From assembly GCA_023212725.1 (NCBI GenBank), contig JALBYF010000013.1, positions 124,001 to 188,000 on the forward strand: 64,000 bases of DNA, given 5' to 3'. Made by a program: the position numbers and the translations under genes. Below the pieces are notes generated by a model. It was not told the DNA's origin and did no database searches. It was given only the letters and a program-made list of their open reading frames with translations. How positions within the stretch are numbered: position 1 is the stretch's first letter; the number at the start of each line of letters is the position of its first letter. Of the stretch, positions 13,460-15,658 are shown in pieces. Origin of the DNA: Tranzscheliella williamsii (Eukaryota; Basidiomycota; Ustilaginomycetes; Ustilaginales; Ustilaginaceae).

Positions 13460-15658
13460 ATGTTCGGCAGGACAGTCCGACTGGCAGCAAGCGCAAGAGC
13501 ATCAGCGCCCGGCGGTCTGGCTCGTGCTTGGACCCCGAAGCCACGTCCATTTTCTACAGCGCCAGCGAATCTATCCTCTTCGCGAGGCGCTGCATTCTTC
13601 CTTTCTGATGCGCCTCTGCTACGGGCCCTGCGCCGAAAGCAAGAAGCCTACAGGCTCCGGCAGGTCAATCCGAAACGCAAGGCCGAAAGATTGGAAGCAG
13701 CGCAGCTGGCTCAATCCGAGATTCGGTGGATTGTCCAGCACGTTAGCAGTTCCGCCGCGCTGCCAGATGAGCAAAGCACAGCAAAGCAGAAGAAATCTCG
13801 GCCGCTCACCCGCAATCAGCGCCGCACGCTCATCAAAATGGTATGCGAAATGACCCGAAACGAGGTGCCGGTATCGTACTTGCTCGGCAGTATGCCGTTC
13901 GGGCTGCTCGCTGAACCTCTCCTCGTGCGGCCACCGATCCTTCTGCCGAGACCCGAGACCGAAGACTGGGCTACCAGAGTCTCCGAGTTCATCTCGGCTT
14001 ACCTCTCCGAAAGGTCCCCCGACCTTTCGTCGCCGCTTCGCGTAGTTGACCTGTGTACTGGGTCGGGATGTGTTGCTCTGCTCGTGGCCGATATGCTCCG
14101 GAAACGGCTGGGCGAGACCGGATGGCAGGTGGTCGCTTGTGACAGCTCTTCCCCGGCTGTGGATCTTGCCACAGAGAACGCTGCCAAACAGGGCTTTAGC
14201 AGCACTCAGGTCACGGTCCTGCAGGCCGATGTCTTCAGTGATGACGACATGGACCAGATGGTCCGGAGCGCAGCTGGGCCGTTCAACGTCCTACTCAGCA
14301 ATCCGCCTTACATTCCTAGGCGGGAATGGGAAGCGCTGGCGCCATCTGTCAAGCAGCATGAAGACCCGGCTGCCCTGATTGGCGAGCGTGGCGTGCCACA
14401 TTACAGCACCGCCCCTACCTCTGCCTTTCTCCCAACACCGCCCATTGGCCCTGACAAAGATGGTTTGGCCTTCCACAGACGGCTGGCCGAGCTGGCATCC
14501 CGGCCGGCCTTCTGTTCGCCCTTGCGCAGTCGAACCGCCTCCTCGGCCGTGCCGCGCTTGGTAGCCGAGTATGGAAAGGGCCAACACAGAGCGGTGGAAC
14601 GTATTTACCGACGGCATCTGCCGCCAGGCTCCCGCTTACCACGTATCGTACAGCTCCCGCAACGCCTTGTGGTGGTTGGAGTGGGCAATGCTACGACGCA
14701 TCCGCTCACACGCCATTCGATTGGGCAGGTTGTACTTGATGGTCTGCTGACCAGTCTCGTGCGCGATGAGAGGGCCACCAGACAGCGGCTCCAGCAGACG
14801 CGCCGCCAGCTAGAAGAGGAAAGAGCCGCAGCCATCGAGAGCGGACATGTTGATGCTAGCGTAAGCGCTAAATGGGCGGTGCCTGTGGGCCTCCCTCCAA
14901 TAGACCGCACAGCGAGCGGCGGGGACGCATGCTCCGTTCTGGATCTCGACAGCGACTACAAGCCTGTCCGGCCGGTGGGTCTGCTGGGCTCGGCGGAGTC
15001 GGCGGGTGGGCTGGCGGAGCGGTTGGGGCGAGTTGCGCTGGGGAAGGGGGCGGGGTGGGGGGCGGTTGTGCCGGTGCTGGTGCCGGGCGCGGACGCGTCT
15101 ACGGTGTACCAGGTCGACGTGGTGCTGTACAAGCCAGCGGCGCCGATGAATCTGTCGGGCGTGGCGCTGCGCGCGTTTCTGGGCGCGCTCGACGCGACCG
15201 AGGGTGGCGGTGGGGCGGGCGGCGCGCAGGTGCTGGTCCTGCAGGACGAGCTGGATCTCGACTTTGGCACGGTCAAGCGGCGCGACGGCGGCTCGGCGCG
15301 CGGCCACAACGGCATCCGCGACATCATGGTGCGCCTCCCGCCCGCCCCGCTCGCGCGCCTCCGCATCGGCATCGGCCGCCCATCCACCACCCCCGCCCAC
15401 ACCCGCTCCCCCCCGTCACTAGCACCCAAACCCGCAAAACCCCTCCCCGTCGACAGGTGGGTCCTCTCCCCCCTCGCACCTGACGAGCTCGACAGCTGCC
15501 GCACACTCGCCCCCACCTCCGTCCTCGCCCAGGTCGCATCGCTCACCTCGGACTGGATCCACCAGCGCGTCCGCGCCCTCCATCCCCCACCCCCTCCCCC
15601 GCCCATCCGCATCGTCCAGGACCAGTTCGGCGTACACCGAACCGTGTGGGTCCAGTGA
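13460..15658 (+). CDS. Fusion: mitochondrial HemK/PrmC-type release-factor glutamine methyltransferase + PTH1-type peptidyl-tRNA hydrolase
   Basis: One uninterrupted 732-residue frame. Residues 1-40 are Arg/Ala/Ser-rich without acids, a likely mitochondrial presequence (RPFSTAP cleavage-like site). Residues about 90-400 are HemK/Mtq1: helical N-domain, VVDLCTGSGCVALLVAD for AdoMet, and the catalytic NPPYIP near 281, ending LVAEYGKGQ. Residues about 402-690 are bacterial-type PTH1: VGVGNATTHPLTRHSIG, PAAPMNLSG, LQDELDLDFG, GGSARGHNGI, RLRIGIGRP. Residues equivalent to E. coli Pth Asn10, His20, Asn68, Asp93 and Asn114 are all present. Expected roles: methylation of the GGQ glutamine of mitochondrial RF1, and hydrolysis of peptidyl-tRNA released from stalled ribosomes. 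An insert in PTH (about 430-500) and a proline-rich insert near 665 are extra to the bacterial enzyme. Both domains look intact. Confidence 0.9.
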   Translation: MFGRTVRLAASARASAPGGLARAWTPKPRPFSTAPANLSSSRGAAFFLSDAPLLRALRRKQEAYRLRQVNPKRKAERLEAAQLAQSEIRWIVQHVSSSAALPDEQSTAKQKKSRPLTRNQRRTLIKMVCEMTRNEVPVSYLLGSMPFGLLAEPLLVRPPILLPRPETEDWATRVSEFISAYLSERSPDLSSPLRVVDLCTGSGCVALLVADMLRKRLGETGWQVVACDSSSPAVDLATENAAKQGFSSTQVTVLQADVFSDDDMDQMVRSAAGPFNVLLSNPPYIPRREWEALAPSVKQHEDPAALIGERGVPHYSTAPTSAFLPTPPIGPDKDGLAFHRRLAELASRPAFCSPLRSRTASSAVPRLVAEYGKGQHRAVERIYRRHLPPGSRLPRIVQLPQRLVVVGVGNATTHPLTRHSIGQVVLDGLLTSLVRDERATRQRLQQTRRQLEEERAAAIESGHVDASVSAKWAVPVGLPPIDRTASGGDACSVLDLDSDYKPVRPVGLLGSAESAGGLAERLGRVALGKGAGWGAVVPVLVPGADASTVYQVDVVLYKPAAPMNLSGVALRAFLGALDATEGGGGAGGAQVLVLQDELDLDFGTVKRRDGGSARGHNGIRDIMVRLPPAPLARLRIGIGRPSTTPAHTRSPPSLAPKPAKPLPVDRWVLSPLAPDELDSCRTLAPTSVLAQVASLTSDWIHQRVRALHPPPPPPPIRIVQDQFGVHRTVWVQ
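15040..15062 (+). other. G-quadruplex-forming G runs inside the PTH domain
   Basis: Four runs of four to six G separated by AA, C and T (15040-15062) on the coding strand. This is a short-loop G-quadruplex pattern, located where third-codon bases change from G-rich to C-rich. Confidence 0.55.

Follow-up and report, generated by a model that had tools for sequence, protein, structure and literature searches.

Glutamine methyltransferases of the HemK/PrmC/Mtq1/HEMK1 group (TIGR03534, TIGR00536; PDB 2b3t, 1sg9 and 1t43) and bacterial-type peptidyl-tRNA hydrolases of the PTH1 family (PF01195, TIGR00447; PDB 2z2i and 2pth) are ancient and widespread components of the end game of translation. The former comprise an N-terminal helical domain, an S-adenosylmethionine (SAM) motif, the sequence NPPYIP and a terminal beta hairpin; the latter are characterized by their fold and by five active-site residues. 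In the basidiomycete Tranzscheliella williamsii a stretch of 64,000 nucleotides (assembly GCA_023212725.1, contig JALBYF010000013.1, positions 124,001 to 188,000; hereafter the window) carries, at 13460-15658 of the forward strand, a gene encoding both enzymes in one frame. With a probability of about 0.75, a bacterial-type PTH1 has been inserted in an Mtq1/HemK glutamine methyltransferase, ahead of its terminal hairpin, giving one two-enzyme protein. This reading is directly supported by the open frame, the membership of both parts in their families, the kept active sites, the nested order in the sequence and in predicted structure, and the recurrence of the arrangement in Ustilaginomycetes.

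The gene is a single stop-free open reading frame (ORF) with an ATG start and 732 codons (732 amino acids), in an assembly of 18.2 Mb in 135 contigs. An initial annotation had described an in-frame fusion of HemK and PTH1 at this place, and its coordinates and single 732-codon frame are correct. The features are listed below, with residue numbers of the window protein and confidence given as the predicted local distance difference test (pLDDT).

13460..15658, forward strand: whole gene, apparently nested HemK(Mtq1)-PTH1 frame, 732 codons plus stop (ORF; 22 relatives)
13460..13579, forward strand: presequence-like N-terminus, residues 1-40, putative mitochondrial targeting (basic start; pLDDT <50)
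13583..13858, forward strand: N-terminal helical domain of HemK, residues 42-133 (helices in the model; HemK chains align from residue 44-49)
13859..14617, forward strand: first piece of the HemK methyltransferase core, residues 134-386, including NPPYIP (14300-14317) (family models, predicted structure, conservation)
14618..14650, forward strand: linker from the last HemK helix to PTH1, residues 387-397 (alignment of fused rows; model)
14651..15577, forward strand: apparently inserted PTH1 domain, residues 398-706 (PF01195; PTH1 chains align mostly over 399-706; active-site residues kept)
14687-14689, 14714-14716, 15149-15151, 15245-15247 and 15308-15310, forward strand: PTH1 active-site codons for N410, H419, N564, D596 and N617, respectively
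14711..14838, forward strand: long helix within the PTH1 domain, residues 418-460 (predicted structure)
15602..15655, forward strand: putative C-terminal beta hairpin of HemK, residues 715-732, strands 716-720 and 726-731 (tail profile; DxFGxxRxxW; HemK chains align to 732)

Relatives were collected by a whole-chain protein search (E <= 1e-3) among the 7991 scored candidates sharing most words, in a length range of about 402-1281 amino acids, which produced 22 proteins; together with the window protein they make up the 23 aligned rows used here. A precomputed PTH1 domain accompanies the methyltransferase domains in 21 of the 22, the exception being P0018. The HemK part of the window protein matches TIGR03534 (E 7.1e-36, residues 104-309) and TIGR00536 (E 1.2e-32, residues 81-310) with 124 and 113.2 bits, below the curated cut-offs of 199.1 and 115.5, both of which are bacterial; in the genome search TIGR00536 was about at its cut-off. 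A comparison with PHROGs yielded two families without known function. The NPPYIP sequence occupies residues 281-286, and NPPY together with D197, C199 and G201 of the SAM motif was kept in all 23 rows, as was G203 in 22 of them (P0012 has a gap there). The residue that precedes NPPY is serine in 21 rows and cysteine in two; PMC8904536 reports a small residue (serine or glycine) at this position in HEMK1, Mtq1 and PrmC and phenylalanine in HEMK2 and Mtq2, so that the serine of the window protein is shared with the former group. Also shared with that group is the presequence-like start: the first 35 residues contain six arginines or lysines and neither aspartate nor glutamate, in agreement with the initial annotation. 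The HemK fold is complete in the predicted structure, including the terminal hairpin, which is placed after PTH1.

For the PTH1 part, the match to PF01195 (E 8.4e-24, residues 549-683) scored 84.8 bits (cut-off 27) and that to TIGR00447 84.1 bits, short of the cut-off of 100; the PTH1 fold is present in the predicted structure. The start of the domain near residue 400 is also indicated by alignments to solved PTH1 chains and is weak by sequence alone (3.5-6.5 bits). Equivalents of the active-site positions, which we take to be N10, H20, N68, D93 and N114 in E. coli numbering, were found at N410 and H419 in 23/23 rows and at N564, D596 and N617 in 22/23, the gene model of P0018 leaving the frame before the PTH1 core. 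The residues required for both activities (NPPY, the SAM motif and the five PTH1 residues) are conserved, the P0012 gap apart, wherever the gene model extends, and the HemK and PTH1 cores named in the initial annotation are borne out by family models and conservation. The 43-residue helix is followed by a poorly predicted insert (region 483-517, with pLDDT <50 at 483-491 and 502-517); compared by eye with bacterial PTH1, helix 418-460 and stretch 483-517 (window 14711-15010) lengthen the spacing from H419 to MNLSG.

The arrangement of the two enzymes was addressed at the C-terminus of the protein. The motif DxFGxxRxxW ends the window protein and 20 of the 22 relatives (the exceptions, P0013 and P0018, are gene models that end otherwise) and none of 116 stand-alone PTH1 C-ends, and it is similar to the final hairpin of HemK proteins that are not fused (consensus dVeIwKDLaGkdRVVvG, 99 rows). 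A 17-column score matrix derived from this hairpin and scanned along every fused row had its top-scoring site at the extreme C-terminus in 20/23 rows, with scores of 4.8-20.4 (14.3 for the window protein; median of the source HemK rows, 31.6). In the five rows tried, none of 20000 shuffles reached the tail score, and the 116 PTH1 controls gave at most 5.6 anywhere and at most -7.6 at the C-end, so that all winning tails are far above every PTH1 C-end. In two AlphaFold models solved HemK chains align through the final residue, flanking PTH1; in that of the window protein they run from residue 44-49 to 732, and PTH1 chains mostly end near 706. If the final hairpin of HemK itself is formed by the last ~18 residues, PTH1 lies within the HemK fold, and on these grounds PTH1 (about 398-706) appears to be inserted between the last helix and the last two strands of HemK. 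The fusion proposed in the initial annotation therefore stands as regards the presence of HemK and PTH1 in one frame and has to be revised as regards their order: according to the tail profile and the two models they are not head to tail, and in place of two complete halves in a row the HemK fold is seemingly finished only by the residues that follow PTH1.

Several observations weigh against a nested order, and two of them (the profile end on the linker and the small score gain from the tail) favour a head-to-tail fusion, in which a complete HemK would be followed by PTH1 and the tail would be a PTH1 add-on or a chance look-alike. The end of the HemK profile runs onto the linker before PTH1 in three of the 23 rows (P0011, P0014 and P0020), and the P0014 linker scores 6.2 by the tail matrix (15.6 for its own tail). 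The tail adds just 0.2 bits to the TIGR03534 score of the window protein (126.1 to 126.3; in P0022 it adds 6.0 bits, 123.6 to 129.6), and the whole-length HemK profile matches it weakly, in 3/23 rows (-3.4 to 0.9 bits). At 4.8 and 4.9, the weakest winning tails do not exceed the top PTH1-control score, the P0003 tail ranks second in its row (-1.4), P0013 and P0018 lack a tail, and the P0022 model is modest (pLDDT 68.9; predicted template modelling score 0.49). For the window protein the question is left undecided by the family models with or without the tail and is settled, as far as profiles and predicted structures go, by the tail profile with its shuffles and PTH1 controls and by the reach of the HemK and PTH1 chains in the models, which make the head-to-tail order very improbable.

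Other explanations of the frame were considered. PTH1 might be a cassette subject to alternative splicing, in which case an isoform of HemK alone would be made too and the nested protein would be one of two products: two frame-keeping GT-AG joins ending in the HemK tail (14594 or 14648 to 15565) can be drawn. Joins of this type readily arise by chance, however, none of four candidate donors fits GTRWGT at all six positions (the best, at 14601, fits five and gives no in-frame product), and the PTH1 segment is open with its active site kept in the relatives, rendering a cassette quite unlikely. It is also unlikely that the PTH1 part has lost hydrolysis and acts as an RNA-binding module like CRS2, the chloroplast group II intron splicing factor with a PTH1 fold, as none of the five active-site residues is missing from gene models that extend to them and identity in structural alignments is higher to true PTH1 chains (32%) than to CRS2 (21%). 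The chance that two genes were wrongly joined in assembly or annotation is practically nil: an assembly artefact was rejected because the same architecture recurs in the 22 relatives, of which 21 have a PTH1 domain, and the trees fit one origin, and two genes read as one because HemK seems to be completed only after PTH1.

The initial annotation had raised the issue of how widespread the fusion is, and the fused frame turned out to be conserved across a fungal class. Thirteen of the 22 relatives are named, from Testicularia, Moesziomyces, Sporisorium, Pseudozyma, Ustilago, Melanopsichium, Kalmanozyma and Thecaphora; the taxonomy was looked up for Thecaphora frezii (Urocystidales) and for Testicularia cyperi and Pseudozyma flocculosa (Ustilaginales), all Ustilaginomycetes, to which the remaining named genera presumably belong as well. 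In the HemK tree (58 rows) and the PTH1 tree (44 rows), each of which includes 21 fused rows, the latter lie on one side of a branch, with SH-like approximate likelihood-ratio test (SH-aLRT) values of 96 and 91, respectively; both trees were made by a quick method with hand-picked non-fused rows. The row closest to the window protein is in both cases that of Testicularia cyperi, and both trees are compatible with a single origin. A recent gain of PTH1 from bacteria was rejected, given that its nearest neighbours among the 23 picked non-fused rows of the 44-row tree are the PTH1 proteins of Sporobolomyces and Rhodotorula (SH-aLRT 92). The comparisons drew on the best 120 of 392 and the best 120 of 314 hits, and among the matches listed in the latter is a stand-alone HemK of 336 amino acids from Acaromyces (Exobasidiomycetes); the insertion was therefore probably made in the Ustilaginomycete stem or slightly earlier. 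One enzyme has seemingly been kept folded in the other since before the split of Ustilaginales and Urocystidales.

The separate intact Mtq1 and PTH1 genes that the initial annotation regarded as a potential argument against its reading were not found in the assembly, which may be incomplete and was searched exon by exon; nor did the sequence data bring up any other of the refuting outcomes named there. PF01195 gave one place, the fused gene, which was likewise the only match of a Sporobolomyces PTH1 query at E <0.1 and of an Acaromyces HemK query at E <0.01; no second PTH1 or Mtq1 was detected. The HemK family model scored 115.4 bits at the fused gene and 22.3-29.1 bits at five other places, the best of which (contig 49) looks like an Mtq2-type enzyme by its FNPPY motif. 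The RF-1 family is represented by three places, each with an in-frame GGQ (136.3, 82.5 and 60.7 bits; the RF1-type GGQ gene is C48), and PTH2 by two (104.2 and 27.6 bits).

Based on this evidence, it can be hypothesized that a single protein is imported into mitochondria behind one presequence, where its HemK part would methylate the GGQ glutamine of the mitochondrial release factor mtRF1 and its PTH1 part would cleave peptidyl-tRNA dropped off mitochondrial ribosomes. The two working sites would come in an obligate 1:1 ratio: the last two strands of HemK would be translated after PTH1, so that HemK is not completed unless PTH1 is made, and a message stopping between the "halves" would yield HemK without these strands. 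By the usual topology of class I methyltransferases, the insertion loop would lie at the sheet edge remote from the pocket for SAM and GGQ, and both sites should thus work side by side with no mutual blocking. Joint action on stalled ribosomes, as suggested in the initial annotation, is a conjecture. A closer coupling, in which HemK, by binding or methylating the mitochondrial release factor, would control or position the hydrolysis of peptidyl-tRNA, since PTH1 is locked in the HemK fold, is unlikely; if true, readying the release factor and clearing the products of failed termination would be one regulated act on mitochondrial ribosomes. As a point against the proposed function, PMC3919214 mentions, as "data not shown", that Schizosaccharomyces pombe lacking the separate pth1 and pth2 genes had no detectable respiratory phenotype, suggesting that the role of PTH1 may be auxiliary rather than essential and arguing against strong coupling.

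Within the gene, GC at third codon positions is 0.48-0.74 over codons 1-488 and 0.84-0.89 over codons 489-732 (window 14924-15658), the rise falling in the middle of the PTH1 part. Both neighbours have minus-strand orientation: at 12171-13550 an aldo/keto reductase frame (PF00248), whose longest ATG frame overlaps the 5' end of the fused gene, and downstream, at 15842-21814, a frame of 1990 codons with an MRC1-like domain (PF09444).

Both enzyme families are well known, and no description of the HemK-PTH1 combination was found in the titles and abstract lines of the open-licence papers listed; databases already display both domains, under methyltransferase names ("related to MTQ1") or as "hypothetical protein" or "uncharacterized protein". 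Two further proteins deserve mention: P0103 of Rhodotorula toruloides (533 amino acids), with a FAM192A/Fyv6 N-terminal domain followed by PTH1, is another basidiomycete PTH1 fusion or a gene-model error, and P0200 of Candida maltosa, which joins an S4-domain mitochondrial ribosomal protein to a HemK-like methyltransferase ending shortly past NPPYIP, possibly represents two adjacent genes in one model.

Among the known systems, the bifunctional PrmC/TrmB (NF002421), which we take to be a rickettsial protein, also joins PrmC to another translation-related enzyme; its partner, however, is a tRNA methyltransferase, the order in its NCBIfam name is PrmC and then TrmB, and the window protein matches the PrmC part only. 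CRS2 (PDB 1ryb) likewise has the PTH1 fold in an organelle protein and differs in being a splicing factor without a methyltransferase. Unlike other PTH1 hydrolases, whose fold and five active-site residues it shares, the window domain is not free-standing and carries, beyond the active-site histidine, the 43-residue helix and a flexible insert. Unlike other members of the HemK/PrmC/Mtq1/HEMK1 group, the window protein has its fold apparently broken by an entire second enzyme ahead of the last two strands, and the nested pair may thereby provide natural evidence linking release-factor methylation to peptidyl-tRNA clearance in mitochondria, as well as a clear example, behind database names that give the methyltransferase only, of a whole enzyme inserted just ahead of the final strands of another fold.
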